Part shown: positions 12,629 through 28,670 of the stretch, piece by piece
Layout: every line of letters starts with the position of its first letter
How positions within the stretch are numbered: the first letter of the stretch is position 1
Assembly (NCBI GenBank): GCA_036491125.1
Contig: DASXCO010000169.1
Coordinates: forward strand, 1-32,517
Direction of reading: 5' to 3'
DNA length: 32,517 nt
From: Acidimicrobiales bacterium
Lineage (GTDB): Bacteria; Actinomycetota; Acidimicrobiia; Acidimicrobiales; AC-9
Program-made: the position numbers and the translations under genes
The notes under the pieces: generated by a model
Databases searched by the model: none
What the model was told of the DNA's origin: nothing
Seen by the model: only the letters and a program-made list of their open reading frames with translations

Positions 12629-12634
12629 GGCACC

Positions 12635-13051
12635 CTGGACAGAAGCGGCCTCCCATACGAGAGCGTCCGCTTCGCCCACAACTCGGAGCGGCAGTTTGCC
12701 AAGCTCCTCGACTTCTACGGGATCATCTGGCAGTACGAGCCCGTCGAGTTCACCCTGGAGCGGGACACCAATGGCGCACCCGCCGCGGCTCTCCGGCCCG
12801 ACTTCTATCTGCCCGCGTACGACCTCTACATCGAGATCACCACCCTCAACCAGCGTCTGGTGACGAAGAAGAACGCCAAGGTGCGACGTCTCCGCCAGCT
12901 GCACCCCGAGGTGAAGATAAAGATCTTCTACCAGCGTGACTATCTGAACCTCCTGGTCAAGTACGGCCTGGAAGAGCCCTCGCAGTTGGCCGACGCCGGC
13001 CTCGACACGGTCGAGCCCCGTCCCCTCTCCTTCGAGCCCGAGGACGACTAG
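12635..13051 (+). CDS. Nuclease-like conserved protein with an apparent CTG start (138 aa)
   Basis: The conserved-looking protein reads LDRSGLPYESVRFAHNSERQ at its start, then LLDFYGIIWQYEP, RPDFYLPAYDLYIEITTLN, TKKNAKVRRLRQLHP and FYQRDYLNLLVKYG. A glutamate in the first helix, then PDF, then IEI with downstream lysines resembles the PD-(D/E)XK nuclease core, although the usual E-x-K lysine is T here. There is no ATG, GTG or TTG in frame before GTG 12860, which would remove most of the fold. CTG 12635 with a G-rich AAGGGGGG about 9 nt upstream is the most likely start. It is in the same frame as merR, seven nt after its TAG. Function unknown. Confidence 0.68.
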   Translation: MDRSGLPYESVRFAHNSERQFAKLLDFYGIIWQYEPVEFTLERDTNGAPAAALRPDFYLPAYDLYIEITTLNQRLVTKKNAKVRRLRQLHPEVKIKIFYQRDYLNLLVKYGLEEPSQLADAGLDTVEPRPLSFEPEDD

Positions 13052-13112
13052 CCCGGCTCGGGAGGCCGGCGCAAGGACGCTGCGCTCGGCTGGGCACACC
13101 CTGGGGAGGCCG

Positions 13113-13118
13113 TAGGCT
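13113..13118 (+). promoter_or_regulatory. -10 hexamer TAGGCT, leaderless start for gcvT
   Basis: TAGGCT ends 8 nt before GTG 13126. No Shine-Dalgarno sequence and no glycine riboswitch are seen in the 74-nt gap. Confidence 0.55.
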
Positions 13119-13125
13119 GGCGGGC

Positions 13126-14199: not shown

Positions 14200-14203
14200 G
14201 CCA

Positions 14204-15547
14204 GTGGGTCACTACGTTCCGCACACCGACGCCGAGATCGACGTCATGCTGGCCGCCTTGGGGCTGACGTCGGTGGAGGAGCTGTTCGCTTCCGTCCCCC
14301 AGGCGCTCCGCCTGGCCGGCGGGCTCGATCTGCCCGCGGGGCTGGGCGAGCCGGACGTGCTGGCTCGGCTCGAAGAGCTGGCCGGGCGCAACCAGGTGGA
14401 CGGACGGGACCTGGTCTGCTTCGCCGGGGCGGGCGCCTATGACCACGAGGTACCTGCGGCGACCCGGTCGCTGGCCGGCCGGGCCGAGTTCGTCACCGCC
14501 TACACGCCGTATCAGCCCGAGGTGGCCCAGGGCGTGCTCCAGGCCCTGTTCGAGTTCCAGACCATGATCGCCCGGCTGGCCGGTGTCGGCATCGCCAACG
14601 CCTCCTTGTACGACGGCGCCAGCGCCACCGTGGAAGCGGTGAACCTGGCCACGTCCTCCACCCGTCGGTCGACGGTGTGGATCTCCGAGGGCGTGCACCC
14701 GCACTGGCGCCAGGTCGTGAGGACGTTCGCCGCCGGAGAGGGTCGCGAGGTGGTCGAGATCCCCCTCGACGACGGCGTGACGGCGTGGCCGGACGAGCCG
14801 CACGACGTCGGCGCCGTCATCACCGCCTACCCGAACTACCTGGGCTGCCTGGAGGACCTCGGTCGGGCTCGGCAGGTGGCCGACGGCGCCGGGGCGCCGC
14901 TCGTCGTGGCCTTCGACCCGGTGGCGGCCGGACTGCTCCGCTCACCGGGGTCGTGGGGAGCCGACGTGGTGGTGGGCGAGGGTCAGGCCTTCGGGACGGC
15001 GCTCAATTTCGGCGGCCCCTACCTGGGGCTCTTCGCGTGCACCGAGGAGCACGTGCGCCGCCTGCCCGGCCGCCTGGTGGGCGAGACGGTCGACACGGAG
15101 GGCCGCCGTGCCTACGTCACCACGCTGCGGACCAGGGAACAGGACATCCGCAGGGAGCGGGCGTCGTCGAACGTCTGCACCAACCAGACTCTGATGGCCG
15201 TGACGGCGGCGATCCAGCTCGGGTGGCTGGGCACGGGCGGGCTCGTCGAGGTGGCTCTCCGCTGCGCCCGGGGTGCCCGCTACTGCCGTGAGGCGCTGCT
15301 CGCGGTCGACGGCGTCGAGCCACTCGTCTCGGCGCCCGTCCTGCGCGAGTTCGCCGTCCGGGCCCCCGTCGACGGCGAGGTGCTCGTCGAGCGGCTGGCC
15401 GAGGAGGGCTTCCTCGCCGGGGTGCCGCTCGGGCCCGGTCTGGAGGCCAGTGGGTGCGAGGGTGGCTTGCTCGTGGCGGTCACCGAGCGCCGGACGAGGG
15501 AGGAGATCGACGCCTTCGCCGCCGCCTTCGAGAAGGCCGTGCGGTGA
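14204..15547 (+). CDS. gcvPA: Glycine dehydrogenase (decarboxylating) subunit 1 (447 aa)
   Basis: N-terminal half-type subunit of the two-chain P protein, which decarboxylates glycine and loads the H protein. Typical start GHYVPHTDAEIDVMLAALG. Further landmarks are CFAGAGAYDHEVPA (about 73-86), TAYTPYQPEVAQGVLQALFEFQTMI, SLYDGASATVEAVNLA, VITAYPNYLGCLED, VVVGEGQAFGTALNFGGPYLGLFAC and TREQDIRRERASSNVCTNQTLMA. It lacks the PLP lysine, which is on subunit 2. GTG 14204 is preferred because it gives the family's usual N-terminus; GTG 14192, overlapping the gcvT end, is the alternative. The stop overlaps the gcvPB ATG (TGATG). Confidence 0.94.
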   Translation: MGHYVPHTDAEIDVMLAALGLTSVEELFASVPQALRLAGGLDLPAGLGEPDVLARLEELAGRNQVDGRDLVCFAGAGAYDHEVPAATRSLAGRAEFVTAYTPYQPEVAQGVLQALFEFQTMIARLAGVGIANASLYDGASATVEAVNLATSSTRRSTVWISEGVHPHWRQVVRTFAAGEGREVVEIPLDDGVTAWPDEPHDVGAVITAYPNYLGCLEDLGRARQVADGAGAPLVVAFDPVAAGLLRSPGSWGADVVVGEGQAFGTALNFGGPYLGLFACTEEHVRRLPGRLVGETVDTEGRRAYVTTLRTREQDIRRERASSNVCTNQTLMAVTAAIQLGWLGTGGLVEVALRCARGARYCREALLAVDGVEPLVSAPVLREFAVRAPVDGEVLVERLAEEGFLAGVPLGPGLEASGCEGGLLVAVTERRTREEIDAFAAAFEKAVR

Positions 15548-17127
15548 TGGACCGGGAGGGCGCGGGCGCCGCCACCAGCGCCGGGACGAGCGCCGCCACC
15601 GACCCCGCCGGGGGGCGGGCCTCGAGCGCGCCGCTCATGGGTCGGGAGTCCGAGCCGACCATCTTCGAGCTCTCGCAGCCCGGCCGGCGGTCATGGTCCC
15701 TGCGCACCACGGGTGTACCAGAGTGGTCGGCGCCGGAGCTGGTGCCCGAGGCGCACCTGCGGTCCGAGCCGGTCGAGGTGGCCGAGGTGTCCGAGCGCGA
15801 CCTCGTGGCGCACTTCACCCGGCTCTCGCACCGGCAGTACGCGGTGGACGTCGGGGCCTATCCCCTCGGGTCGTGCACGATGAAGTACAACCCCAAGCTG
15901 TGCGACGAGGTCGCCTCCCTCCCCGGCCTGACCCGCGCCCACCCCGCTGCTCCCGCGTCACTGGTGCAGGGGTGGCTGGAGCTGCTGGTCGCGCTGGAGG
16001 AAGCCCTGTGCAAGGTGACAGGGATGACGGCGGCCACCTTGCAGCCGGCGGCGGGCGCGGCCGGCGAGCTCACCGGGTTGATGCTGATGCGGGCCTGGCA
16101 CTCGGCGCAGGGGAACGGGTCAGGGCGGCGACGGGTGATCATCCCCGACTCCGCCCACGGGACCAACCCGGCCTCGGTCACCCTCGGCGGCTACGAGGTG
16201 ACGACGGTTGCCTCCGATGCCAGAGGTTGCGTCGACGTGGACGCCCTCGAGGCCGTACTCGACGACACGGTGGCTGGCATCATGCTCACCAACCCGAACA
16301 CCCTCGGGCTGTTCGAGGAGGACATCGCCACCATCGCCGCGGCCGTGCACGACGTCGGTGGGTTGCTCTACTACGACGGGGCCAATCTCAACGCCATCCT
16401 CGGTGTGGCCCGCCCCGGCGACATGGGCTTCGACATCGTGCACATGAACCTGCACAAGACGTTCGCCACGCCCCACGGCGGCGGGGGACCGGGCGCAGGG
16501 CCGGTGGCGGTATCGGAGCGGCTGGCGCCCTTCCTGCCCGGACCGCGTCCCGTGCGCCGTCCCGGCGGCCAGGAGGACCAGGCCGACGGCTACGGGTGGG
16601 AGATGCCGGAGCGCTCCATCGGCCGGGTGCACTCCTGGCACGGCAACGCCGTGGTCCTGGCCCGGGCGTACGCCTACGTCCTCGCCAACGGCGGTGACGG
16701 CCTGCGGCGGGTGGCCGACGCCGCCGTGCTCAACGCCAACTGGCTGCGCCAGCGCCTGCGCGGCTCCTACGACATCCCCTACGACCGGCCCAACATGCAC
16801 GAGCTGGTGATCTCGGCCGCCAACCTGAAGCGGCGCAGCGGCGTCAAGGCGCTCGACGTGGCGAAGCGACTGCTGGAGGAGGGCTTCCACTCTCCGACGG
16901 TGTACTTCCCGCTGACCGTCGAGGAGGCCCTCATGATCGAGCCGACCGAGACCGAGAGCCCGCAGACGCTCGAAGCCCTGGGCCACGCCCTCGAGGTCAT
17001 CGCCGCCGAGGCCCTCGGTGGCGATCCCGGCCCGGCGAAGGCGGCGCCGCGGACCACGCCGGTCTCCCGGGTCGACGAGGCCCGGGCGGCCCGCCAGCTC
17101 GTTCCGACCTGGGACGCCCGGGGCTGA
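15547..17127 (+). CDS. gcvPB: Glycine dehydrogenase (decarboxylating) subunit 2 (526 aa)
   Basis: PLP-bearing subunit of the two-chain P protein. The PLP lysine is K304 in HMNLHKTFATPHGGGG, with the glycine-rich loop next to it. Further landmarks are YPLGSCTMKYNPKL (about 102-115), LQPAAGAAGELTGL, DSAHGTNPASVTLGGYEV, IMLTNPNTLGLFEEDI, YYDGANLNAILGVARPGDMGFD and MIEPTETES. The first 35 residues are an A/S/G-rich tail ahead of the usual start (SEPTIFELSQPGRRSW). The C-terminal 25 residues are also non-conserved. The start overlaps the gcvPA stop by one base. Mycobacteria carry a single-chain GcvB at the comparable position, so the split form here is notable. Confidence 0.95.
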   Translation: MDREGAGAATSAGTSAATDPAGGRASSAPLMGRESEPTIFELSQPGRRSWSLRTTGVPEWSAPELVPEAHLRSEPVEVAEVSERDLVAHFTRLSHRQYAVDVGAYPLGSCTMKYNPKLCDEVASLPGLTRAHPAAPASLVQGWLELLVALEEALCKVTGMTAATLQPAAGAAGELTGLMLMRAWHSAQGNGSGRRRVIIPDSAHGTNPASVTLGGYEVTTVASDARGCVDVDALEAVLDDTVAGIMLTNPNTLGLFEEDIATIAAAVHDVGGLLYYDGANLNAILGVARPGDMGFDIVHMNLHKTFATPHGGGGPGAGPVAVSERLAPFLPGPRPVRRPGGQEDQADGYGWEMPERSIGRVHSWHGNAVVLARAYAYVLANGGDGLRRVADAAVLNANWLRQRLRGSYDIPYDRPNMHELVISAANLKRRSGVKALDVAKRLLEEGFHSPTVYFPLTVEEALMIEPTETESPQTLEALGHALEVIAAEALGGDPGPAKAAPRTTPVSRVDEARAARQLVPTWDARG

Positions 17128-17149
17128 GCAGGCCGCGGGTCCGGACGGC

Positions 17150-17175
17150 GGCGCCCTCGCGTGCGGCGCCCTTTC
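17150..17175 (+). terminator. Hairpin after gcvPB
   Basis: Two GGCGCC hexamers (17150-17155 and 17165-17170) can pair around a 9-nt loop and are followed by CTTTCC. This is a weak, short-U-tract terminator candidate about 23 nt after the stop. Confidence 0.35.
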
Positions 17176-17219
17176 CGGGGGTCGCCTCGGCGGCGCTGCG
17201 GCTCCCAGCGGGGCTGGCC

Positions 17220-17225
17220 TATGGT
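17220..17225 (+). promoter_or_regulatory. Possible -10 hexamer TATGGT for the acyl-CoA synthetase gene
   Basis: TATGGT lies 31 nt before ATG 17256. The predicted leader of about 25 nt contains AGAGGAG, 5 nt before that ATG. Confidence 0.4.
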
Positions 17226-17255
17226 CGGCGGACGCAGGACTAGAGAGGAGTCGTG

Positions 17256-18812
17256 ATGGCCCCGAACGTCGACGTCAGCCTGGGCAGCTGGTTCGCGAGG
17301 CGGGCGGCCGCCACCCCGGACCGCCCGGCGATCAGCTTCGAGGGGACCACACGCACCTACGCCCAGTTCCTCGATCGAGTCGATCGCCTGGCGGCCGGCC
17401 TGCGGGCTGGCGGCGTCAGCCACGGCGACAGGGTCGGGTTCCTCGGGCTCAACTCGCCGGCGTTCCTCGAGGCGATGTTCGCCGCGTCCCGCCTGGGGGC
17501 GAGCTTCGTGCCCCTGAACTTCCGCCTCACCGGCCCCGAGCTGGCCTTCATCATCGGCGACGCCGGGATCCACACCCTGGTGGCTGACGGCCCGCACCGT
17601 GCGGTCGCCGACTCGGTGCGCCCACGCGTGCCGGTGCGTCGCTACCTGGGAGCCGACCACGTGGTCGCCGACGGGTGGGAGCTGCTCGAGGACGTCATCG
17701 CCAGCCACCGCCCGATCACCGCCACCGAGCCGATCGGCGACGACGAGGTCGCGGCCATCATGTACACCTCGGGCACGACCGGGCGGCCCAAGGGGGCCAT
17801 GCTCACCCACGGCAACCTCTGGTGGAACAACATCAATGCCCTCCACACCCTTGACATCGTCCAGGACGACGTCACCCTCGTTGTCGCGCCGCTGTTCCAC
17901 ATCGGCGGCTTGAACGTCACCACGCTCGTCACCTGGCAGAAAGGTGGCGAGGTGGTGCTGCACCGCAGCTTCGACCCGGGCGCCTGCCTCGAGGCCATCG
18001 CCGGGCGCGACGTGACGACCATGTTCGCCGTGCCGGCGATGCTCCTGCTCATGAGCCAGCACCCCGGCTTCGGCGAGGCCGACCTCACCAGCCTGCGGAT
18101 GGTGGTCTGCGGGGGAGCGCCCGTGCCCGAGGCGCTCATCAAGACCTACAACGGCGCGGGCGTTCCCATCAACCAGGGCTACGGCTTGACCGAGACGGCA
18201 CCCCTCGTGACGTTCCTCACGCCGGAGTTCGCGCTGGAGAAGGTGGGGTCGGCCGGCCGGACTCCGCTGTTCACCGAGGTGCGACTGGCGGGGGCGCAGG
18301 GCGGCGTGGTGGTCGAGCCACTGGCCCGCGGCGAGGTGTGCGTGCGGGGACCCAACGTGATGAAGGGGTACTGGAACCAGCCTGAGGCCACGGCGGCCGC
18401 CATCGACAGCGAGGGCTGGTTCCACACCGGGGATCTCGGCTATGTCGACGAGGACGGGTTCCTCTTCATCGTCGATCGGGTGAAGGACATGGTGCTCACC
18501 GGTGGCGAGAACGTGTATCCGGCCGAGGTGGAGGGCGCGCTCTTCCAGCATCCGGCCGTCGCCGATGTCGCCGTCGTCGGTGTGCCCGACGAGCGCTGGG
18601 GAGAGACGGTGGTGGCGGTCGCGGTGGCGAAGGAGAACGCGTCGCTGACCCTGGAGGACCTGCGCGACGTCGCCGGCCGCTCCCTGGCCCGCTACAAGCT
18701 GCCGACCCGCTTGGAGGTGGTCGACGCCTTGCCTCGCAACCCGGCGGGAAAGATCCTCAAGTTCGAGCTCCGGGAGCGGCTCGGAGCGGGTCCGGACACG
18801 AAACGGAGCTGA
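17256..18812 (+). CDS. Long-chain-type acyl-CoA synthetase (AMP-forming, 518 aa)
   Basis: Activates a carboxylic acid through an acyl-AMP to an acyl-CoA. The adenylation motifs are complete: AIMYTSGTTGRPKGAMLTHG (P-loop type, about 168-187), GYGLTETAPLVTF (A5), GWFHTGDLGYVDEDGFLFIV (A7), DRVKDMVLTGGENVYPAEVE (A8) and NPAGKILKFELR with the catalytic lysine near the C-terminus (A10). Normal length. ATG 17256 is chosen over GTG 17253 because AGAGGAG is 5 nt upstream. It is followed after 5 nt by a luciferase-like oxidoreductase, suggesting an operon. The exact acid (fatty, aromatic or terpenoid) cannot be read from the sequence. Confidence 0.92.
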   Translation: MAPNVDVSLGSWFARRAAATPDRPAISFEGTTRTYAQFLDRVDRLAAGLRAGGVSHGDRVGFLGLNSPAFLEAMFAASRLGASFVPLNFRLTGPELAFIIGDAGIHTLVADGPHRAVADSVRPRVPVRRYLGADHVVADGWELLEDVIASHRPITATEPIGDDEVAAIMYTSGTTGRPKGAMLTHGNLWWNNINALHTLDIVQDDVTLVVAPLFHIGGLNVTTLVTWQKGGEVVLHRSFDPGACLEAIAGRDVTTMFAVPAMLLLMSQHPGFGEADLTSLRMVVCGGAPVPEALIKTYNGAGVPINQGYGLTETAPLVTFLTPEFALEKVGSAGRTPLFTEVRLAGAQGGVVVEPLARGEVCVRGPNVMKGYWNQPEATAAAIDSEGWFHTGDLGYVDEDGFLFIVDRVKDMVLTGGENVYPAEVEGALFQHPAVADVAVVGVPDERWGETVVAVAVAKENASLTLEDLRDVAGRSLARYKLPTRLEVVDALPRNPAGKILKFELRERLGAGPDTKRS

Positions 18813-18817
18813 GCCGT

Positions 18818-19696
18818 ATGCGTATCGGATTGTTCATCGCGACCATCAATCCCATCGCCACCCCCGAGTTCCTCGCCTCGATGGCACGTGGAGCGGAGGA
18901 GGGCGGCTTCTCGTCGGTGTGGGTGGGGGAGCACGCCGTGCTCGTCGACGAGTACGAGTCACGCTATCCGTACGCCGACGACGGCAAGATCCCACTCACG
19001 GGCGACGTCGGTCTGCTGGAGCCCTTCGACGCGCTGTCGTTCCTGGCCGGGGTGACCTCGACGGTGCGGCTGGGCACGGCCGTGTGCCTGCTTCCCCAGC
19101 GCAATCCCGTCTACACCGCCAAGGACGTCTCGACGGTCGACTGGTTGTCGGGGGGTCGCTTGGACTTCGGCATCGGCGTGGGCTGGCTGCGGGACGAGTT
19201 CGAGGCCGTGGCCGCGCCCTTCGAGCACCGGGGCGAGCGCTGCCGGGAGTACATCGAGGTCATGCGCAGCCTGTGGTGCGAAGACCCCTCGGAGCACCAG
19301 GGGAGGTTCTATTCATTGCCTCGCTGTCGGATGTTCCCCAAGCCGGTGCAGGAGCCGCACCCGCCCCTGTACTTCGGGGGCGAGAGCGACGCCGCCCTAC
19401 GCCGTGTGGCCGATCTCGGCCACGGTTGGCACGGCTTCAACCTCGCCGCCGACGAGGCGGCCGAGCGGGTGGCCCGCCTGGAGCGCATGCTCGAGGAGCG
19501 GGGCCGGACCCTTGCCGACGTCGACGTGACCGTCTCGTCCTATCTCAAGCCCGTTGAACCCGAGAGCGTCGCCGCCTACCGGGATGCGGGGGTCGACCAG
19601 CTCGTGCTCCCCGCCTTCGCCACCGACAGTCAGAAGATGAGCGAGCTTCTCTCCGGACTGTCGGAGCGGTTCGTGGAGCCGGCCGGGGCGCTGTAG
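18818..19696 (+). CDS. Luciferase-like, probably F420-dependent oxidoreductase (292 aa)
   Basis: TIM-barrel flavin/F420 oxidoreductase of the luciferase-like monooxygenase family. Landmarks are MRIGLFIATINPIATPEFLA, GFSSVWVGEHAVLV, VTSTVRLGTAVCLLPQRNPVYTAKDVSTVDWLSGGRLDFGIGVGW split across residues 80-125, FPKPVQEPHPPLYFGGES, and the C-terminal AYRDAGVDQLVLP. The SGGRLDFGIGVGW segment is the family's phosphate-binding signature. Length fits the TIGR03619-type F420-dependent subgroup as I recall it. It probably forms an operon with the acyl-CoA synthetase. Its stop codon directly abuts the stop of the convergent aldolase-like gene. The substrate is unknown. Confidence 0.88.
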   Translation: MRIGLFIATINPIATPEFLASMARGAEEGGFSSVWVGEHAVLVDEYESRYPYADDGKIPLTGDVGLLEPFDALSFLAGVTSTVRLGTAVCLLPQRNPVYTAKDVSTVDWLSGGRLDFGIGVGWLRDEFEAVAAPFEHRGERCREYIEVMRSLWCEDPSEHQGRFYSLPRCRMFPKPVQEPHPPLYFGGESDAALRRVADLGHGWHGFNLAADEAAERVARLERMLEERGRTLADVDVTVSSYLKPVEPESVAAYRDAGVDQLVLPAFATDSQKMSELLSGLSERFVEPAGAL

Positions 19697-20458
19697 CTAC
19701 TCGAGCAGGTCGGGCTGCTCCCGCACGATGCGGTCGTAGAGCGGCTGGAAGCTGAACCAGCCGGCAATGTTGCTGCCGACCTGCGTGGACGTGAGCTTGG
19801 CCATGTCCTCTTCGATCAGCACCGGCTTGCCGGCGGCCTCGGCGAGGAGCTGAGCCTGGCACGAGCGTTCCATGGTGATGAACCACCAGGCCGCCTCGTC
19901 GACGGACTGGCCGACGGTGAGCAGCCCGTGGTTGCGCAGGATGACGGCCTTGGAGTCAGCGAGGGAGTGGGCGAGGCGCTTGCCCTCCTCGAGGTCGAGG
20001 ACGACACCGGTGTAGTCGTCGAACAGGGCGTGGTCCCCGTAGAAGGCGCACACGTCCTGGGTGATGGGGTCGAGCTTGCGTCCGAGCGCCGACCACGACT
20101 TGCCGTAGATCGAGTGGGCATGGGCCGCGGCCACCACGTCGGGACGGGCGGCGTGGACCTGGGAGTGGATGGCGAAGGCGGCGGTGTTGACGGTGTAGTC
20201 ACCCTCGACCACCTCGCCCTTGTCGTTCACCAGGATGAGGTCGCTGACCCGGATGTGGCCGAAGTGGACGCCGAAGGGGTTGACCCAGAAGTGGTCGAGA
20301 CGCTCCGGATCCCGCGCCGTGATGTGGCCGGCGACTCCCTCGTCGAAGCCGAACCGCGAGAACAGACGAAACGACGCCGCGAGCCGCTGCTTGCGGTGCA
20401 GCCGTTCGTCCTCGACGGACGAGAACTGGGGCGGCAGCGGGAGACCTTTCTCCGGCAT
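19697..20458 (-). CDS. Class II aldolase/adducin family protein (253 aa)
   Basis: Zinc-dependent class II aldolase fold, as in L-fuculose-phosphate aldolase and L-ribulose-5-phosphate epimerase. Landmarks are FSRFGFDEGVAGHITARDPE (about 34-53), LILVNDKGEVVEGDYTVNTA, the metal site AAAHAHSIYGKSWSALG (H-x-H) and the third ligand in AVILRNHGLLTVGQSVDEA. ATG 20458 is chosen because GGAGG lies 7 nt upstream. The H-x-H and NHG ligands are intact, so an active lyase, epimerase or decarboxylase is possible; many actinobacterial members of this size are uncharacterised. It converges with the luciferase-like gene with no gap between the two stop codons. Confidence 0.9.
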   Translation of the reverse strand: MPEKGLPLPPQFSSVEDERLHRKQRLAASFRLFSRFGFDEGVAGHITARDPERLDHFWVNPFGVHFGHIRVSDLILVNDKGEVVEGDYTVNTAAFAIHSQVHAARPDVVAAAHAHSIYGKSWSALGRKLDPITQDVCAFYGDHALFDDYTGVVLDLEEGKRLAHSLADSKAVILRNHGLLTVGQSVDEAAWWFITMERSCQAQLLAEAAGKPVLIEEDMAKLTSTQVGSNIAGWFSFQPLYDRIVREQPDLLE

Positions 20459-20537
20459 CTGGACACCTCCGCGAAAGGGATCTGACCAGCCGATCCTAAC
20501 GGTCCCGGTCGGCTGTCGGGTGCGGGGCCCCGGCTGG

Positions 20538-20543
20538 TACGTT
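20538..20543 (+). promoter_or_regulatory. Possible -10 hexamer TACGTT for the RDD gene
   Basis: TACGTT lies 60 nt before the proposed CTG start. The resulting leader of about 48 nt contains AAGGAG at 20587-20592. No clear -35 is visible. Confidence 0.35.
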
Positions 20544-20597
20544 CTCGGCAAAACGGCTCGGCGGGGGAGTCCCGTCCGGGTCGGCGAAGGAGCAGCC

Positions 20598-21149
20598 CTG
20601 AGCACCGATCGCCCGCTCTCGGAGTCCGGCCGCGACGAGCACTCGGCCCCGGCGTCGAGGGGACCGGCAGGCTGGGCCGAGCCGCGCTCGGCCCAGTGGC
20701 GTGACCGCCGCTCTGGCGGGGTCGCCGGGACACAAGCGGGGCCAGTCGACGAGGAGCCGCCCCCGAGACAGGCGTTGCTCGCCCACTGGGGATTGCGGGT
20801 GGCTTCCTACCTGGTCGACTTCGTGGCCCCGTTCCTGGCCGCGGCCATCCTCGTCAGGGTGTGGGCGCCGGCCGGGTTCGTCGCCTACGTGGTCGCCGTG
20901 GCCTTCGTGGTCTGGAACCTGGTGGTCCAGGGCGTCACCGGCCAGTCGGTCGGCAAGCGCCTCGTCGGCACCATGCTGGTGCGACAGGACGACGGCGAGG
21001 TCGTGGGTCCGTGGCTGTCGATCGTGCGCTACCTCGCCCACATCGTGGACGTCCTGCCGCTCTACGCGGGGTTCTTGTGGCCCCTGTGGGACCACAAGCG
21101 CCAGACCTTCTCCGACAAGCTGTGCCACACGGTCGTCATCGTCGCCTGA
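20598..21149 (+). CDS. RDD-family membrane protein, apparent CTG start (183 aa)
   Basis: Integral membrane protein of the RDD family. After a polar N-terminal region of about 65 residues come the hydrophobic segments LRVASYLVDFVAPFLAAAIL and FVAYVVAVAFVVWNLVV, then QSVGKRLVGTMLV, and a last hydrophobic stretch VDVLPLYAGFLWPLWD, ending in KRQTFSDKLCHTVVIV, which is typical of RDD C-termini. AAGGAG sits 5 nt before CTG 20598 and no ATG, GTG or TTG follows in frame until TTG 20774, just before the first helix. The CTG start is therefore inferred; a shorter protein from 20774 cannot be excluded. RDD proteins are poorly understood, with transport roles proposed for some. Confidence 0.75.
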   Translation: MSTDRPLSESGRDEHSAPASRGPAGWAEPRSAQWRDRRSGGVAGTQAGPVDEEPPPRQALLAHWGLRVASYLVDFVAPFLAAAILVRVWAPAGFVAYVVAVAFVVWNLVVQGVTGQSVGKRLVGTMLVRQDDGEVVGPWLSIVRYLAHIVDVLPLYAGFLWPLWDHKRQTFSDKLCHTVVIVA

Positions 21150-21463
21150 GGGGCGTGAACGTCGCTGTCGTAGATGCCATGAAGGCGCCCGAGAACGTCC
21201 GATTGGTGCCCGTTCGAGGCAACCTGCAGCGGCTAGGCCCCAGAAACGCCAGCTGAACGCGACGAGCTCGGGCGCGACAAGCCTGCCAGGGCGACTCGGT
21301 CGTGCCGAGATGCGGTCGGCGGGCTCGAGCAGCCGGGGAGGGGTTCCGGAGGCAATCGGAGCCGTCTACGGGCTTCCCACGAACTCAACTTTACATAACG
21401 TACATTCTGGGCGGCCGGGGTAGGGGTGTATCGGGTCTCGAGAGGGGTGCCGCCACCGCGGGC
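21150..21463. other. Convergent intergenic region of 314 nt
   Basis: Lies between the ends of the RDD and PAP2 genes. It holds a dif-like site at 21388-21415. The rest shows only a weak 33-codon ORF (GTG 21155 to TGA 21256) with no ribosome binding site and no recognisable product. No tRNA was found. Confidence 0.6.
21388..21415 (-). other. dif: Candidate dif site (XerC/XerD chromosome dimer resolution site)
   Basis: On the minus strand the site reads as an 11-nt left arm GCCGCCCAGAA, a 6-nt centre TGTACG and an 11-nt right arm TTATGTAAAGT. The right (XerD) arm matches the Bacillus subtilis dif arm, as I recall it, at 10 of 11 bases and the E. coli arm at 9 of 11. The left arm ends in AGAA, like B. 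subtilis. Overall about 20 of 28 positions match the B. subtilis site. It is an AT-rich island in GC-rich DNA, lies in a convergent gap, and separates mainly plus-strand genes on the left from mainly minus-strand genes on the right. Confidence 0.6.
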
Positions 21464-22459
21464 TCAGGCGCTGACGCCGACCTCGGTGGGGCTGTCGTCG
21501 CCGTCCGCAGCTGGTGGTGCGGTGGGCGCGCCCGTGGCCCCCGGCTCGGCGCCCGACGACGGGACTCCCGGCACGGCCCCGGAGGTCGGCGGGCGACGGC
21601 GAAGACCGCTCACGCGAAGCGGGTCGACGAGTGACACGATTCGACCAGGAGCGCTCGTGAGCCATGAGTCGGCTGCCCGGAGCCATCCGGCCGGCACCTG
21701 CAGCCAGGCCGGGTGCGGAAGCACGCCGCTGAGGGCGGCGATCGGCGAGACCGTGAAGGCGGGACGGGGGAGTTGGGTGATGGCCACCCCGAGGGTGAAC
21801 ACGACCACTCCCCCGGCGGCGTCGAGGAAGTAGTGGTTGGCGGTGACGATGATCGTGAACAGGGTGACGAAGGGGTGGAGGATCAGCAGGGCCTTGATCC
21901 AGCGACGGCGGACGACAGGGACCAGGGCGAAGACGCACCAGAGGGCCCAGGCGATGTGGAGGCTGGGCATGGCGGCGTAGAGGTTGCCGGCGTCCTTCAT
22001 GAGGGCCGAGTCCCAGCTGCCGATCCCTCCGATCACGTTCAGGGTGTCCACGAAACCGAAGCTCGACGGCAAGAAGCGCGGCGGCAGCAGAGGGAACGCG
22101 ATGAAGCCGACGAGGCCAAGGCCGGTCATCCAGGCCAGGGCGTTGCGCCACCGGATGTAGCGCTCGGGGAATCGGCGGAACAGCCACACGAGGGTGACCA
22201 CCGGGAGCACGAAGTGCACCGTTGAGTAGAAGAGGTCGGACGCCTCGATCAGGAGCCGATGCGGCAGGAACCACTGCTGAATGGCGTGCTCGCCAAAGAT
22301 GCCGAGGGACCGCTCCGCGTGGACGATCTGGCTGGCGTGGGTGCCGGCCACGGCGTGGGCCCCGGCCGCCTTGCTGCTCGTCCACTCGTAGACGAGGTCG
22401 AACGCCACGATGGCGAGCACTTCCTTCCACCACCGCAGCCGCCGCGTCCCCGGGTTCAC
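21464..22459 (-). CDS. PAP2-superfamily membrane phosphatase/phosphotransferase (331 aa)
   Basis: Membrane protein of the PAP2/inositol-phosphotransferase type. The two catalytic motifs are AAMPSLHIAWALW (PSLH) and TANHYFLDAAGG (N-H-x3-D), each within or beside hydrophobic helices. Five or six membrane segments are visible (for example KEVLAIVAFDLVYEW, VHFVLPVVTLVWLF, MTGLGLVGFIAFPLLPPRF and LLILHPFVTLFTIIV). The C-terminal 90 residues are a P/G/A-rich cytosolic or external tail. GTG 22459 is preferred over ATG 22465 because TAGGAT ends 8 nt before the GTG but only 2 nt before the ATG. Likely acts on a lipid phosphate or polyprenyl phosphate; the substrate is not known. The dif-like site follows its stop. 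Confidence 0.85.
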   Translation of the reverse strand: MNPGTRRLRWWKEVLAIVAFDLVYEWTSSKAAGAHAVAGTHASQIVHAERSLGIFGEHAIQQWFLPHRLLIEASDLFYSTVHFVLPVVTLVWLFRRFPERYIRWRNALAWMTGLGLVGFIAFPLLPPRFLPSSFGFVDTLNVIGGIGSWDSALMKDAGNLYAAMPSLHIAWALWCVFALVPVVRRRWIKALLILHPFVTLFTIIVTANHYFLDAAGGVVVFTLGVAITQLPRPAFTVSPIAALSGVLPHPAWLQVPAGWLRAADSWLTSAPGRIVSLVDPLRVSGLRRRPPTSGAVPGVPSSGAEPGATGAPTAPPAADGDDSPTEVGVSA

Positions 22460-22466
22460 CGGCATG

Positions 22467-22472
22467 ATCCTA
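22467..22472 (-). promoter_or_regulatory. -10 hexamer TAGGAT, leaderless start for the PAP2 gene
   Basis: Read on the minus strand, TAGGAT ends 8 nt before GTG 22459. It would be too close to ATG 22465 to drive its expression, which decides the start. Confidence 0.5.
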
Positions 22473-22514
22473 ACGAGCCAGGTTGCGTTAACCAGTGCAT
22501 TCGCCCCATCTGGC

Positions 22515-23246
22515 TCATGTCGGCAGGGCCCCGAGAAAGCCCAGCGCAGCGTCGATGAAGCCGAAGCTCATCGGTGTGGCCAGGTGGTCCACCCCCTCGA
22601 GGACGACCAGGGTGGCGTCGGGCAGGGCGTCGAGCAGGGGCTCAGCCGGGCCGGCGAAGTCCTGGTCCCCCAGGACCACGAGGACCGGGACCCGCACCCC
22701 GGCCAGCTCCTGACTGGTCAGCGGGGCGACGGGTCGCCGGAGGCAGGCGGCGAGGGCGAGGGGATCGTTGCCCGGCGTCCGGGCGAACCGGGCGAAGGCT
22801 CGGGCGAGGTTGGACTGGGGCGGAACGGCAGAGGTCCCGGAGCCGGGCTCCGAGGCGGATATGGAGCTCCCGGGCGCCGATCCCTCGACGGCGCGGGCGA
22901 CGACTTCGACATCGTCGTCGCGCAGCACACTCTCCCCTACACCGCCCACCACGACGCGGCCGAAGGCACCGGGTCGGGTGGCGGCGACCGTGAGCAGCAG
23001 CCTGGCACCCAACGAGAAGCCGATGGCGTCGACGGGACCATCCGGTGGGAGGAGGGTCGTCAGCTGGGACTCGAGGCCGACGTAGGCGGCGGGGTCGTGG
23101 GGCTTGGCCGCCGTCCCGTGGCCGAGAAGGTCGGCGCCGATGACCTCTCGACCTGCATCGCACAACAGGTCCACCCAGCCGGGCTCGCGCCAGTTGCGCT
23201 CGAACGACGAGGCGAAACCATGGACCAGGAGGACGGGCACCGGCAC
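22515..23246 (-). CDS. Alpha/beta hydrolase (243 aa)
   Basis: Alpha/beta hydrolase fold enzyme. The N-terminal VPVLLVHGFASSFERNW gives the oxyanion-hole HGF motif. The nucleophile is S78 in AIGFSLGARLL (G-x-S-x-G), the acid lies in VLGDQDFAGP (D196, or D194), and the histidine is H221 in GVDHLATP. Residues about 120-175 form a lid with a G/S/P-rich stretch. GTG 23246 starts 9 nt after a TAAAGT hexamer, with no Shine-Dalgarno sequence. Esterase, lipase or meta-cleavage hydrolase roles are all compatible; the neighbours do not settle it. It lies upstream of the PAP2 gene on the same strand, with its own promoter. Confidence 0.88.
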   Translation of the reverse strand: MPVPVLLVHGFASSFERNWREPGWVDLLCDAGREVIGADLLGHGTAAKPHDPAAYVGLESQLTTLLPPDGPVDAIGFSLGARLLLTVAATRPGAFGRVVVGGVGESVLRDDDVEVVARAVEGSAPGSSISASEPGSGTSAVPPQSNLARAFARFARTPGNDPLALAACLRRPVAPLTSQELAGVRVPVLVVLGDQDFAGPAEPLLDALPDATLVVLEGVDHLATPMSFGFIDAALGFLGALPT

Positions 23247-23254
23247 GGATCGCC

Positions 23255-23260
23255 ACTTTA
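23255..23260 (-). promoter_or_regulatory. -10 hexamer TAAAGT for the hydrolase gene
   Basis: On the minus strand TAAAGT ends 9 nt before GTG 23246, leaving at most one or two untranslated bases. Confidence 0.5.
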
Positions 23261-23330
23261 CGGGTGCGCCCTGGCGTTTCTAGAGCGCCCCGGTCGACCT
23301 CGCCCGTCGCAGGCCCCGGTGATCCCGTTG

Positions 23331-23336
23331 TAGCTT
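23331..23336 (+). promoter_or_regulatory. -10 hexamer TAGCTT before the RG-rich protein gene
   Basis: TAGCTT ends 10 nt before ATG 23346, predicting a leader of about 3 nt or less. It is divergent from the hydrolase promoter, 70 nt away. Confidence 0.5.
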
Positions 23337-23345
23337 GGCCTCGTC

Positions 23346-24761
23346 ATGTCCCGCAGGATCGACGTGGAGCTGACCAGCGTCCGGGAAGACGGCAGCTGGA
23401 CGTGGCGCGCAGCTGGGGCGCGCCAGCCGAAGGGCGTGCTGGAGGGCTCCGTGCTCTACGAGGGCGCCAAGGTCGGTGACGTGGTGCGGGCGGAGGCGGA
23501 GTTCGAGCTCGAGGGCATCAGCATCTTGTCGGTGCTGCCGCCGAAGGAGAAGAAGCGCGCCGAGCCCGAGCGGCTGGAGATCATCGGTTCGCCGGGTCGA
23601 CAGGAGGGCGTGACCACGTCAGTGATGCGCCGGAGCGGCCGCCCGGAGCGAGGCCGCGGGGACGGCGATGCGAGGCGGCGGCCGCGACGAGACGGCGGTG
23701 ACGCGTCGCCGGAGCGGCCCCGTCGCGAGGGCTCGTCCCGCCAGCCTCGGTCGGATGGCGAGGGACGAGCGCGCCGCGGCGACGCCGGTCCGGGAGGCCG
23801 GTCCAGGGGCGGTCGGACGCCGGCGGACACGAACGCAGACAAGCGCCGCGATGGCGGCGGGCGGCGCGGACCGCGGCGGGATGCTGAGTCGGGCGGGCGC
23901 GCCGCTGGTCGGCCGGCGCGCCAGAGCGAAGACTCCGGAGACGGCGGTAGGACACCACGGCCGAAGCGGCTGAGCCCGGCCACCGTGCACCGCGACGCCG
24001 CTCTGGCCGGGCTGTCCCCGGAGCAGCGAGCGATCGCCGAGCAGGTGCTCAAGGGTGGCATCCCCGCGGTGCGCCAAGCGATCGAGGGCCAGAACGACCG
24101 GGCGCGCTCGGCCAACCTTCCAGAGGTCAACGGCGAGGCCCTTCTGACGCTCGCCGAAGAGCTCCTTCCACGGCTGAATGCAGCCACCTGGCGGGATCGG
24201 GCCGACGCGGCGGCCGGCGCCGTCGACGAGATCAGCCTGCGGGACCTGCGGTCGGTCGTCGCCGGCGCGGACACGGCGACGCGCGACGACGAAAGTCGCC
24301 TCCTCGCCAGCACCCTGCGCGAGGCGCTCGAGCGGCGCGTGGGGCACATGCGCGAGCAATGGGTGGAGGAGATCACCCGGGCTCTGGATGAGGGTCGCCT
24401 GGTGCGGGCGCTCCGGGTCTCGGCCCACCCACCCGAGCCGACGGCGCGCTTTCCTGGCCAGCTGGCGGTGCGCATGAGCGATGCCGCCGGCGAGGCGATG
24501 GCGCCCGACACCTCGGCGGAGCGGTGGACGACACTGCTCGAAGCGGTGGCGGACTCTCCGATCCGGCGGATGGTCAAGCCCCGGGGGCTCCCCCGCGATC
24601 CGGCGGACAGCGTGGTCGACGCGGCCCGGCAGGCCTCCGGACGGGTGCCCGCGCTCGCCACCATGCTGGGCATCGGTATGCCGCCGCCGCCGGGTCCACC
24701 GCGGCCGCACTCCCCTCGTCCGCCGCGCCCGGCGGTCGGTCGCGACCGGCGGGCGGGCTGA
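23346..24761 (+). CDS. Unknown protein: small beta domain, RG/RD-rich linker, helical C-terminus (471 aa)
   Basis: I do not recognise a named family. Residues 1-80 look like a compact beta domain (IDVELTSVREDGSWTWRAAG, then GVLEGSVLYEGAKVGDVVRA and GISILSVLPPKEKK), resembling an OB-fold or TRAM-like nucleic-acid module. Residues about 85-210 are a highly charged disordered stretch rich in RR, RG, RD and GG, much like RNA-binding RGG regions. Residues about 215-450 are mostly helical (SPEQRAIAEQVLKGGIPAVR, ISLRDLRSVVAGADTATRDD and similar), followed by a proline-rich tail. It is followed after 4 nt by the enoyl-CoA hydratase gene. An RNA-binding role is inference only. Confidence 0.78.
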   Translation: MSRRIDVELTSVREDGSWTWRAAGARQPKGVLEGSVLYEGAKVGDVVRAEAEFELEGISILSVLPPKEKKRAEPERLEIIGSPGRQEGVTTSVMRRSGRPERGRGDGDARRRPRRDGGDASPERPRREGSSRQPRSDGEGRARRGDAGPGGRSRGGRTPADTNADKRRDGGGRRGPRRDAESGGRAAGRPARQSEDSGDGGRTPRPKRLSPATVHRDAALAGLSPEQRAIAEQVLKGGIPAVRQAIEGQNDRARSANLPEVNGEALLTLAEELLPRLNAATWRDRADAAAGAVDEISLRDLRSVVAGADTATRDDESRLLASTLREALERRVGHMREQWVEEITRALDEGRLVRALRVSAHPPEPTARFPGQLAVRMSDAAGEAMAPDTSAERWTTLLEAVADSPIRRMVKPRGLPRDPADSVVDAARQASGRVPALATMLGIGMPPPPGPPRPHSPRPPRPAVGRDRRAG

Positions 24762-24765
24762 CCCC

Positions 24766-25527
24766 GTGGTCGACTACAGCAAGCGGGGCAATACTGCGGT
24801 GCTCACCATCCGCCGTCCTGAGGCCCGCAACGCCGTCAATGCCGAGGTGGCCAAGGGCATCGAGGCGGGTCTCGATCGCCTCGAGAGCGACAGCGAGGTG
24901 TGGATCGGTGTCGTCAGCGCCGACGGCCCCGTCTTCTCTGCGGGCGCCGACCTCAAGGCCATCGCCGCCGGTGAGGCGTTGACGCTGTCTACCGAGCGCG
25001 GCGGCTTCGCTGGCATCACCCGCCGCGATCGGGTGAAGCCCCTTGTGGCCGCCGTGGATGGGCCCGCCCTGGCCGGGGGGTGCGAGATCGTCCTGGCGTG
25101 CGACCTCGTCGTGGCCTCGACGGCCGCCTCCTTCGGCCTGCCCGAGGTCAAGCGATCGCTGGTAGCGGCGGCGGGCGGACTGTTCCGGCTGCCCCGAGCC
25201 CTCCCCCCCGCGGTGGCCATGGAGCTCATTCTCACCGGCGACCCCCTTCCGGCCGAGCGGGCGCACGCCCTCGGCATGGTGAACGAGCTGGTCGCTCCCG
25301 GAGAGGCGTTGACGGCGGCGCTGGCGCTGGCCGAGCGGGTCTGTGCCAATGCTCCCGTCGCCGTGCGGGAGAGCCGAGGAGTGGCGATCGCCGCCCACAC
25401 GGCCGACGACGAGACCCTGTGGCAGATGACCGAGGAGGCGATGACCCGAGCCGCTCGCTCGGAGGACTTCGCCGAGGGTCCGCGCGCCTTCATCGAGAAG
25501 CGGGCGCCGGTCTGGAAGGGACGCTGA
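24766..25527 (+). CDS. Enoyl-CoA hydratase/isomerase family protein (253 aa)
   Basis: Crotonase-fold enzyme acting on acyl-CoA substrates. The oxyanion-hole segment is FSAGADLKAIAAG (57-69) and the second part ALAGGCEIVLACDLVVAS. Both catalytic glutamates of true enoyl-CoA hydratases are present: E107 (GGCE) and E127 (GLPEV), followed by VAAAGGLFRLPR. GTG start 4 nt after the upstream stop, so it is co-transcribed with the RG-rich protein. The C-terminal PRAFIEKRAPVWKGR is typical. Converges with the NUDIX gene after 12 nt. The acyl chain cannot be assigned. Confidence 0.92.
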   Translation: MVDYSKRGNTAVLTIRRPEARNAVNAEVAKGIEAGLDRLESDSEVWIGVVSADGPVFSAGADLKAIAAGEALTLSTERGGFAGITRRDRVKPLVAAVDGPALAGGCEIVLACDLVVASTAASFGLPEVKRSLVAAAGGLFRLPRALPPAVAMELILTGDPLPAERAHALGMVNELVAPGEALTAALALAERVCANAPVAVRESRGVAIAAHTADDETLWQMTEEAMTRAARSEDFAEGPRAFIEKRAPVWKGR

Positions 25528-25539
25528 CCGACTCGTTCG

Positions 25540-25932
25540 TCAGAGGACGCCGTGGTCCCGGAGGAAACCGGCCAGGCCGTCGACGAGCGCGACCCGCGGG
25601 ACCGACGACAGCGGGAACCAACTGGCCTCGGCAGCATCGTCAGCGGCCACCGGCCGTCGTCCATCGGTGACGGTGACGGCGAAATCGAGGATCACGAAGT
25701 GGTGTTGCGGCCCGATTCGCTCGGCCCAACCCAACAGCTCGCCGCAGCGCACCTGCAGTCCCGTCTCCTCCGCCACCTCGCGGACGACCGCGTCGCAGAT
25801 GGTCTCCCCTGCCTCGACCCGGCCGCCGGGCACCGACCATCGTCCCGCTCCCGGCCCCCTCCCCCGCCGCACCAGCAGCAGCTCCTCATCGGCCACGGCC
25901 ACGGCGCCGACGCAGAGCTCGGGACGGGTCAC
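25540..25932 (-). CDS. NUDIX hydrolase (130 aa)
   Basis: Hydrolyses a nucleoside diphosphate linked to another group. The Nudix box G-x5-E-x7-R-E-x2-E-E-x-G is complete in GGRVEAGETICDAVVREVAEETGL (split: GGRVEAGETICD and AVVREVAEETGL, about residues 35-58). It is preceded by the usual LLLVRRGRGPGAGRWSVPGG. GTG 25932 overlaps the stop of the upstream GNAT gene (GTGA) and has GCGGAG just before it, so the longer frame starting at 26079 is rejected. Substrate not determined; MutT-like or ADP-ribose pyrophosphatase-like roles are possible. Confidence 0.9.
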   Translation of the reverse strand: MTRPELCVGAVAVADEELLLVRRGRGPGAGRWSVPGGRVEAGETICDAVVREVAEETGLQVRCGELLGWAERIGPQHHFVILDFAVTVTDGRRPVAADDAAEASWFPLSSVPRVALVDGLAGFLRDHGVL

Positions 25933-26438
25933 TGCTCCGCGGGCGGGGTCCGCCCGGGAGGGCGGTCTGATGAGAGGGCCCGGTGCATGACGATCAGTCG
26001 CGCCTTGAAGCCGCTCGACTCGAAGAAGTTCTTGCTCAGACGGTCGCCGGGAAGCGCCACGGTGTCCACCCCGGCGCACCCCCGATCGACGAACCAGGCC
26101 ATGAGGGCGCCCATGAGGGCTTCGCCCACGCCCACGCCGCGGGCGCCCGGCTCCACGAACAGGTCCTCGACGACGCCGAGCTCGGTCCCGCCGGGGAGCG
26201 TCTCGGTGCGGGCGGTGGCGTAGCCGACGATCTGGTCATCGACCGTGCCGACCCAAGCTGCTCCGTCGCGATCGTCCAGGGTCCGGGCCAGCGCCTGCTC
26301 GACGGGCTCGGGTCGACCGTGGTGCTCGACGAGCAGCGCCCCACCTCGAGCGGCGGAGAGCTGGGCCAGAGCGCTGCGGCTGAGCTCGGCGAGCCGAGGG
26401 AGGTCGTCCCGGTCGGCTCGCCTGGCCGCTTCACGCAT
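25929..26438 (-). CDS. GNAT-family N-acetyltransferase (169 aa)
   Basis: Acetyl-CoA-dependent acyltransferase. Core motif A is VVEDLFVEPGARGVGVGEALMGALMAW (read as VVEDLFVEPGARGVGVGEA plus LMGALMAW, about 89-115), with R/G-x-G-x-G for pyrophosphate binding; motif B is KNFFESSGFKARLIVMHR. ATG 26438 overlaps the stop of the upstream gene (TGATG), and its own stop overlaps the NUDIX GTG. The three-gene run is a tight, translationally coupled operon. The substrate cannot be assigned. Confidence 0.88.
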   Translation of the reverse strand: MREAARRADRDDLPRLAELSRSALAQLSAARGGALLVEHHGRPEPVEQALARTLDDRDGAAWVGTVDDQIVGYATARTETLPGGTELGVVEDLFVEPGARGVGVGEALMGALMAWFVDRGCAGVDTVALPGDRLSKNFFESSGFKARLIVMHRALSSDRPPGRTPPAEQ

Positions 26439-27091
26439 CAGCTCCTGCCGGGAGCCTGCAGCTGGGCGATGCGATTGAGAATGGTCCTGCGGCCCCTGGT
26501 GGCCGCCTCGTAGGTCCTCACCGCCTCCAGCTCGTCCGCAGCGAGGCCGGCCAGGCGCTGGACCACGTGGGAAGCAGACAGCGCGTCGTAGCCCGGGATG
26601 GCGAGGGCGCTGGCGTCACCAGACGGCGTGCCCGGTGCCGGTAGCGGTGCCGAGGCGCCCTCCACCGACGTGGACACGGTGGACGGGGGGACAGGAGGGG
26701 CTCCGTCGGATCCCGTGGTGCCGTCTGTCGACCAGACCCCTGTGCCGTCGCCGTCGCCGTCCGTCGGGTCCGCCTCCCGGGCCGGCTGTGCCCACGGGTC
26801 GGGCTCCCCCGGCTGTGCCCACGGGTCGGCCTCCCGGGCCGCCGGTGCTCCGAACGGCCCGCCTTCCGAGACGCGTCCGGTCGCCTGACGAACCACACGC
26901 TGCGCCTCGCGTTGCCCTTGGGCGACGGCGAAGCTGCCGACCATCTTGGCCATGGCGAGCTGGCCGTTCACCCGGGCCCGGCCCTTGTCGATCAGCTGCG
27001 GCAGCTCCTCGGTGACCGAGATGGCCAACCCCACCGGTGCGTAAAGGCACACATCGAGGGCCTGCTCGAGCAGTGATTTCCTCTCCGTCAT
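26438..27091 (-). CDS. Conserved actinobacterial-type protein of unknown function with repeat-bearing linker (217 aa)
   Basis: Two helical ends are joined by a disordered middle. The N-terminus contains LLEQALDVCLYAPVGLAISV and ELPQLIDKGRARVNGQLAMA, which look amphipathic or membrane-associated. The C-terminus reads LAIPGYDALSASHVVQRLAG and LAADELEAVRTYEAATRGRR, similar to conserved hypothetical actinobacterial proteins I recall, without known function. The middle (about 85-160) is P/G/S/D/T-rich and contains ADPWAQP repeats encoded by the dispersed 30-nt DNA unit. ATG 27091 is preferred; GTG 27109 is possible. First gene of the overlapping unknown-GNAT-NUDIX operon. Confidence 0.82.
   Translation of the reverse strand: MTERKSLLEQALDVCLYAPVGLAISVTEELPQLIDKGRARVNGQLAMAKMVGSFAVAQGQREAQRVVRQATGRVSEGGPFGAPAAREADPWAQPGEPDPWAQPAREADPTDGDGDGTGVWSTDGTTGSDGAPPVPPSTVSTSVEGASAPLPAPGTPSGDASALAIPGYDALSASHVVQRLAGLAADELEAVRTYEAATRGRRTILNRIAQLQAPGRS
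26754..26840 (-). repeat. Three tandem copies of the dispersed 30-nt unit inside an unknown gene
   Basis: Copies at 26811-26840 (30 nt), 26784-26810 (27 nt) and 26754-26783 (30 nt), read on the minus strand. The first and third begin GGCCCGGGAGGC; the first ends GGGCACAGCC. The reading frame is shifted by one base relative to the copies in ftsR and helY. Confidence 0.8.
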
Positions 27092-27130
27092 GACCCCATC
27101 ATTCCTCACGGCGCAGCTCGGCAGGCCCGG

Positions 27131-27577
27131 TCAGCTGGTGCGCACGATCATCACGTCGCACGGGGCGTGATGGCTCACGGCGTTGGGCACGCTGCCGAGC
27201 AGGAAGCGGCCGGCTGAGGACATGCCCTTCGACCCCACTACGATCAGGTCGGCTCGCCGCCGGTCGGCCACCTCGAGCAGGGCCTCAGCGGCGGTACCAG
27301 CCTCGGACACGGCACTGGCATCCGTGACCCCCTCCTGCCGAGCGAGCCGGACGGCGTCGCCGGCGTGATCGTCGGCCAATCCGGAAGCCGTGATCCGCCA
27401 CTTGATCTCCTCGGGGGCCTCGGCCCGGTCGCGGTCCAGGCCCTGGGGGTGGGGGTCGTAGGCGGTCACCGCGATGAAGGCGGCGCCGACGGTGGAGGCC
27501 AGCCGGGCGGCGTGCTCGACAGCCTTGGTGGCCGTCTCGGAGCCGTCGGTACCCACCACGATCCGTCGGTAGCTCAT
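27131..27577 (-). CDS. Universal stress protein, UspA family (148 aa)
   Basis: Small nucleotide-binding stress protein. The N-terminus YRRIVVGTDGSETATKAVEH (3-22) is typical. The ATP-binding motif G-x2-G-x9-G-S/T is complete in VVGSKGMSSAGRFLLGS (about 116-132), followed by VPNAVSHHAPCDVMIVR. An ATP-binding member is therefore likely. ATG 27577 is preceded by a G-rich stretch at a plausible distance; the longer frame starting at 27844 overlaps the DUF4193 gene on the same strand and is rejected. Possible roles are in stress or dormancy responses, inferred from the family only. Confidence 0.92.
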   Translation of the reverse strand: MSYRRIVVGTDGSETATKAVEHAARLASTVGAAFIAVTAYDPHPQGLDRDRAEAPEEIKWRITASGLADDHAGDAVRLARQEGVTDASAVSEAGTAAEALLEVADRRRADLIVVGSKGMSSAGRFLLGSVPNAVSHHAPCDVMIVRTS

Positions 27578-27644
27578 GGACGGCCCCCAGAGGACCTGGA
27601 GGCGGGTTGGCCCCGCAGCGGGGCTGGACGCGCGAGGCGCCTGC

Positions 27645-27674
27645 GCCATTGTCCTCGGGCCCGCCTCCCGGGCC
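27645..27674 (-). repeat. Intergenic copy of the dispersed 30-nt repeat
   Basis: Read on the minus strand it begins GGCCCGGGAGGC and contains GGGCCCGAGGACAATG. It matches the ftsR unit at 10384-10413 closely and the 462-491 copy at 21 of the first 22 bases. It lies 3 nt after the DUF4193 stop codon. Confidence 0.7.
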
Positions 27675-27677
27675 GGC

Positions 27678-28166
27678 CTAGACGCAGTCGCGACACAGCA
27701 TTCGCTCCTGGTCGGCCAGCTGGCTGGGGTGCTTGACGAGGAAGCACGACCGACACACGAACTCGTCCGGCTGCTTGGGCAACACCTTCGTCGCCGTCTC
27801 CGTCCGGTCCTCGGTCTCGGGTGTCTCCTCGTCCTCCTCCTCATCCTCGGCGACGACCAGGCGCTCCTTGAGGATCACGTCGAGGCTGGCCTCGACGTCC
27901 TCCTCGTCGTCCTCGTCGTCGTCCTCCTCCTCCTCGTCCTCGGCTCGATCGGTCGTGGCGGGGGCGCCGTTCTTGCTCTCCGGCTCCGCCGCCTCCGCCT
28001 CCTCCTCCTCTTCCTCCTCGAGATCCTCGCCTTCGTCGGCCTCTTCTTCCTCGAGCGAGTCCTCGTCAATGAGCTCGTCGTCTGCCAGCTCGTCGAGGTC
28101 GGGCTCGTCGAGCTCCTCTTCTTCTTCTGTTTCTTCGTCCACCTGGTCGTCGACGTCTTCGGCCAT
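27678..28166 (-). CDS. DUF4193 zinc-ribbon protein with a long acidic N-terminus (162 aa)
   Basis: The C-terminal 70 residues carry the DUF4193 signature: ASLDVILKERLVV followed by an acidic patch, then DEFVCRSCFLVKHPSQL and LCRDCV, giving a four-cysteine zinc knuckle (C-x2-C and C-x2-C). The homologue I recall, mycobacterial Rv2699c, is about 100 aa. Here some 90 extra N-terminal residues are almost entirely E and D with a few L, A and S. ATG 28166 is chosen with AAGGA 9 nt upstream and TAGGCT about 32 nt upstream. The acidic arm suggests a nucleic-acid mimic or a protein-binding arm, but that is speculation. Function of the family is unknown. Confidence 0.88.
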   Translation of the reverse strand: MAEDVDDQVDEETEEEEELDEPDLDELADDELIDEDSLEEEEADEGEDLEEEEEEEAEAAEPESKNGAPATTDRAEDEEEEDDDEDDEEDVEASLDVILKERLVVAEDEEEDEETPETEDRTETATKVLPKQPDEFVCRSCFLVKHPSQLADQERMLCRDCV

Positions 28167-28197
28167 TGCAGCCCGTCCTTGCTGAGTTCGGCCCGGG

Positions 28198-28203
28198 AGC
28201 CTA
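28198..28203 (-). promoter_or_regulatory. -10 hexamer TAGGCT for the DUF4193 gene
   Basis: On the minus strand, TAGGCT lies about 32 nt before ATG 28166, giving a leader of about 25 nt with an AAGGA ribosome binding site. Confidence 0.45.
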
Positions 28204-28670
28204 TACGGCGCCACCTGCTCGTCGAGCGGGCCACAGGTGGCGGGCTCCGGCGCGCAAACTACCGCCTGCCGGCAGGCGAGACGCCGGCCGGCACATCCAT
28301 CAGACCAGCGGATCCAGGCGGGCGGTTGGGCCCAGGAGCCTTTGGGGCCGTCCGGTGGCCCATTCCCCCGTAACGCAAAAGAGCGCTCGACGGAAGGGTT
28401 ATTGGGACGTTCTCTACTCGGCTTCCTGGGCCCCCGCGGCCCGCGACCCCCCCTCCCAAGAGAACAAACCACATAATCCCGGGAGGCCCACGACCTGGCG
28501 TCCGGGGCGTCTGGGACTCCGCTAGTTATGCCGCGCCTGGAGGTGATCGTCAACCCCGACCTGATCCGGATGACCTGGCTCTTCGCGTATCACCCCTGTT
28601 CAAGAGGGTGAAAAAAAACCCAGCCTGCGGGGGATACCCACCGCCCGCGCGGGGGCGCGCTCGGTCGCTG
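28204..28670. other. Non-coding region of 467 nt with several inverted repeats
   Basis: Between the DUF4193 promoter and the ThyX stop. It holds CCACCTG/CAGGTGG (28211-28217 and 28234-28240), the perfect palindrome CGCCTGCCGGCAGGCG (28263-28278), GTTCTCT/AGAGAAC (28409-28415 and 28459-28465) with a GC-rich loop, and an A8/T8 run (28611-28618). A 27-codon ORF (ATG 28528 to TGA 28611, MPRLEVIVNPDLIRM at its start) has no ribosome binding site. A non-coding RNA or gene remnant is possible; I recognise neither tmRNA, RNase P nor SRP RNA. Confidence 0.5.
28611..28648 (-). terminator. Candidate intrinsic terminator after the ThyX-like gene
   Basis: On the minus strand GCGGG/CCCGC (28627-28648) forms a hairpin followed after 8 nt by a run of eight T (28618-28611). 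The T run is the only one of this length in the window; the spacing to the stem is longer than ideal. Confidence 0.5.

Follow-up and report, generated by a model that had tools for sequence, protein, structure and literature searches.

A predicted chromosomal dif site and its polar GGGGGAG surroundings in an uncultured Acidimicrobiales lineage

The 28-mer at 21388-21415 (minus strand; GCCGCCCAGAATGTACGTTATGTAAAGT) of the 32,517-nucleotide stretch of DNA analysed here, referred to as the window, is with a probability of about 0.97 the chromosomal dif site of its Acidimicrobiales host, and recombination at this site is predicted by analogy with established Xer/FtsK systems. Dif is the place near the replication terminus where the recombinases XerC and XerD part joined daughter chromosomes. 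The initial annotation had offered the same reading, which is supported by the uniqueness and conservation of the sequence, the presence of three machinery proteins and the antipodal position of the equivalent site in relatives, together with motif polarity. Such a site is an expected housekeeping feature; what is new, though minor, is the mapping of dif in this lineage and the use of GGGGGAG polarity as a terminus marker in the Acidimicrobiales examined. From a draft contig, the terminus of replication in this uncultured lineage is thus placed to within about 1 kb.

Read on the minus strand, the site has the 11-6-11 layout GCCGCCCAGAA-TGTACG-TTATGTAAAGT. The putative XerC-binding arm GCCGCCCAGAA (21405-21415) was assigned by alignment with sites from across the order and with the dif of Frankia alni (PMC3025954), the central TGTACG (21399-21404), the most variable part among relatives, would serve as the strand exchange region, and the putative XerD-binding arm TTATGTAAAGT (21388-21398) is the arm best conserved across the order. 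With 13 of 28 bases G or C (46%), the 28-mer is AT-rich against the 71% of the window, and it sits in the gap between two convergent genes, namely an RDD-family membrane protein gene on the plus strand (20220-21149; PF06271, E=4e-12; start codon uncertain) and a PAP2-family gene on the minus strand (21464-22465; PF14378, E=2e-46). The layout, AT-richness and convergent gap given in the initial annotation are thus confirmed. The accompanying claim that gene direction switches at the site holds only roughly: to the left, most of 3304-19696 is on the plus strand, while 19697-20605 is on the minus strand; to the right, genes with Pfam matches are on the minus strand.

With the dif sites of E. coli and B. 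subtilis, the 28-mer shares the XerD arm TTATGTNAANT, while the XerC arm and the centre differ and the present host is GC-rich; the likeness extends to the machinery, as XerC, XerD and the FtsK gamma domain are all encoded in the genome under study. The predicted dif of Frankia alni, CACGCCGATAATGCACATTATGTCAAGT (PMC3025954), is identical at 21 of 28 positions and resembles the site in its 11-6-11 layout, its strongly conserved XerD arm, its occurrence once per chromosome and its location near the terminus, whereas its XerC arm carries CCGATAA in place of CCCAGAA and its centre reads TGCACA in place of TGTACG. Since dif predictions have been published for 66 of 66 Actinobacteria (PMC3025954), the earlier remark that dif is poorly mapped in uncultured or deep actinobacterial lineages was overstated.

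Being short and intergenic, the 28-mer could in principle resemble dif by chance or be an operator unrelated to it, and other protein-binding sites are also found in such gaps, but this explanation is barely credible in view of the search results. At up to 2 mismatches, a single copy of TTATGTAAAGT is present in the window, compared with 0.11 expected; one match was likewise obtained there with the order-wide dif pattern at up to 3 mismatches, and none in 100 shuffles. Conservation across the order refutes this explanation. The 28-mer is identical in both other genomes of the genus, in which the sequence on either side, including the adjacent spacer, has diverged, and it recurs with 3 changes (25/28 identical) in a genome of another family (G006). 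Moreover, the gap separates convergent genes, so that an operator would have no promoter to regulate. The expectation that relatives would conserve the 28-mer was therefore borne out, though not the further expectation of unrelated neighbours, as the neighbouring genes in the genus-mates are syntenic with the window and it is the adjacent spacer that diverges.

A second possibility, that the sequence is an attachment site of dif type which an Xer-dependent mobile element or plasmid left behind or has at its flank, gains some footing from the extra dif-like sites in a related genus described below, yet it is highly improbable, and the single copy and the synteny largely refute it. As had been predicted, the site is the single best match in its genome: a pattern search with up to 3 mismatches returned one match in the whole 3.83 Mb and none with a reversed control, which agrees with the single copy per chromosome characteristic of dif in a draft of 251 contigs that is 96% complete. 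Its flanks consist of metabolic genes, none of the genes typed there being of integrase, plasmid or phage kind, and its neighbours are the same in the two genus-mates and partly so in three other families, where the region from 23.3 kb onward is recognisable beside the equivalent site in the same orientation (G006, G007, G135). In addition, the 28-mer lies where the polar motif switches strand.

The reading as chromosomal dif also accords with the recombination machinery. Both xerC and xerD, on whose presence the initial annotation had made its proposal depend, are encoded in the same genome, which specifies XerC, a full-length XerD and an FtsK whose gamma domain scores 91 bits, above the cut-off. 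The Xer proteins score slightly under the NCBIfam equivalog cut-offs, that for XerD being exceeded in only 4 of 14 control genomes. The xerC gene lies directly upstream of a 378-aa ORF that is read, from its sequence, as rpsB. Near-identical xerD genes occur on two contigs (C115:208-1092, L035; C219:2287-3033, L036, partial and cut by the contig end), and the second copy probably reflects strain variation in the genome bin. From established Xer/FtsK biology, the expected course of binding, activation and recombination would be as follows: XerC would bind at GCCGCCCAGAA and XerD at TTATGTAAAGT; polar motifs of the GGGGGAG type would steer FtsK along each chromosome arm; FtsK would unite the two dif copies of the dimer at the septum and activate XerD; and strand exchange over the 6-bp centre would resolve the dimer.

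A position roughly opposite oriC, as expected of dif, was found for the equivalent site in the complete, single-contig relatives, at chromosome fractions from dnaA of 0.507 (G004), 0.486 (G008) and 0.594 (G125), the genome under study itself being in 251 contigs; two further relatives gave about 0.50 (G242) and about 0.56 (G052), with lengths known to 0.1 Mb only. The GC-skew switch anticipated near 21.4 kb is absent from the window (+0.028 left against +0.030 right of the 28-mer). A sign switch of GC skew near dif is a correlate, not a requirement. Skew is also weak and irregular in the three complete relatives and nearly uninformative in the order, and it was accordingly rejected as a terminus marker, being too weak in both the window and these relatives.

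Motif polarity proved more informative. As no clear polarity was seen for GGGNAGGG, the KOPS form of E. coli, a motif was derived de novo by searching 1.2 Mb of G004, G008 and G125, with the window left out, for 7-mers biased toward dif. The most polar word was GGGGGAG, with 282 copies pointing toward dif and 34 away; the plus:minus counts to the left and right of dif were 36:0 and 0:34 in G008, 48:2 and 1:30 in G125, and 76:11 and 20:58 in G004. Within the window, the counts were 7:0 on the left and 1:9 on the right (Fisher p = 0.0004), the word ranked first for polarity among the testable 7-mers, 1574 in all, and its strands were best separated by a split at 21767-21814, 0.4 kb from the 28-mer. 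The seven left-arm copies (2629-20569, plus strand) start at 2629, 12008, 12240, 13881, 18111, 18925 and 20563, and the nine right-arm copies (21808-32016, minus strand) have their low coordinates at 21808, 24588, 25201, 25859, 26804, 29310, 29826, 30370 and 32010, all pointing to dif, with one wrong-strand exception on the right arm (21766, plus). In the Acidimicrobiales genomes examined, the terminus is thus marked by GGGGGAG polarity and not by GC skew. The exceptional copy lies within the PAP2 gene, 42 bp from the inverted copy at 21808, and the spacing of this pair is kept in both genus-mates (L049, 1783/1825; L050, 603/645).

The motif has a published counterpart in the architecture-imparting octamers (T/C)GGGGGAG and G(A/T/C)GGGGGA, which were used to locate the dif of Corynebacterium aurimucosum (PMC2830990) and which, when pooled, occur in the window at 12:1 to the left and 2:13 to the right of dif. 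The two systems share the GGGGGAG core, the leading-strand bias and the polarity switch at dif, whereas the present motif was derived from, and observed in, Acidimicrobiales, another class of the phylum. By analogy with the KOPS of E. coli and the known case of B. subtilis, we infer that FtsK reads GGGGGAG; a literature search on GGGGGAG together with FtsK returned nothing relevant. A more tentative proposal, which we regard as possible though somewhat less than even in probability, is that guidance through dif and GGGGGAG predates the split between Acidimicrobiia and Corynebacteriales and that the neighbourhood at 23.3-30 kb has been kept beside dif in at least four families; if true, the position of the terminus would be evolutionarily locked.

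Across the order, the 26-base dif-core pattern with up to 3 mismatches matched 148 of 248 genomes, usually once each, against 3 genomes with the reversed control, leaving about 40% of the genomes with no match at this threshold. A looser pattern applied to the latter yielded mostly noise, with control counts about equal to real ones, except for a conserved variant in one family (f35: G036, G081, G112, G139, G164, G186), in which the common pattern has no match. The variant, TTGAGAAT(5)TTATGTAAAGT, recurs in five of these six genomes, the sixth (G081) having TTGGGAAT, and suggests an altered XerC arm; one genome carries two copies on the same contig (G164, C1), 0.75 Mb apart and in opposite orientation. 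The sites collected across the order constitute a dif profile usable for Acidimicrobiales. A further group of matches belongs to a CRISPR array adjoining cas1- and cas2-like ORFs (L052, G146:C163, 429-1116; type II-C suspected by eye), whose repeat recurs every 65 bp and differs from the dif pattern at 3 positions, which produces 11 tandem dif-like matches; at 24 bits, this likeness is plausibly a coincidence.

Most genomes carry one site, but one genus of the order, of low GC content (about 47-54% G+C over the contigs examined), has 8 (G022) and 12 (G070) dif-like sites. When the arms alone were scored, 3 matches were obtained in 1.2 Mb of control DNA taken from three relatives, as many as their own dif sites would account for, and the additional sites are therefore unlikely to be due to chance. 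Several lie near contig ends. In G022 (loci L054-L056 and L129-L132), a canonical site on C10 is accompanied by seven slightly degenerate sites on separate contigs (C3, C55, C84, C94, C95, C106, C109), two of which, among those read, adjoin Rhs-like repeat-protein ORFs. The 12 sites of G070 (contigs C26, C50, C52, C67, C74, C99 and C124; loci L057, L058, L059 and L123-L128) have near-perfect arms and varied centres. On C50, an inverted pair at 5861(-)/6898(+) (L058, 5861-6923) flanks a toxin-antitoxin pair made up of an XRE-type helix-turn-helix gene and a gene for a Gp49/HigB-like toxin, and on C67 another at 11035(-)/13491(+) (L057, 11035-13516) flanks a pabB-like gene together with a short coiled-coil ORF; an ORF resembling the latter also adjoins the dif-like site at 7792. 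Dif modules are known from Acinetobacter plasmids (PMC6449649, PMC13141974), and a literature search pairing dif modules or pdif with actinobacteria listed none from Actinobacteria among the best 12 of its 81 matches, which does not prove that there are none. The inverted site pairs of G070 around small cassettes resemble these modules, here in an Acidimicrobiales genus, and may be regarded as dif-module-like candidate cassettes; the order-wide dif search thereby exposed multi-dif genomes resembling the Acinetobacter dif-module system.
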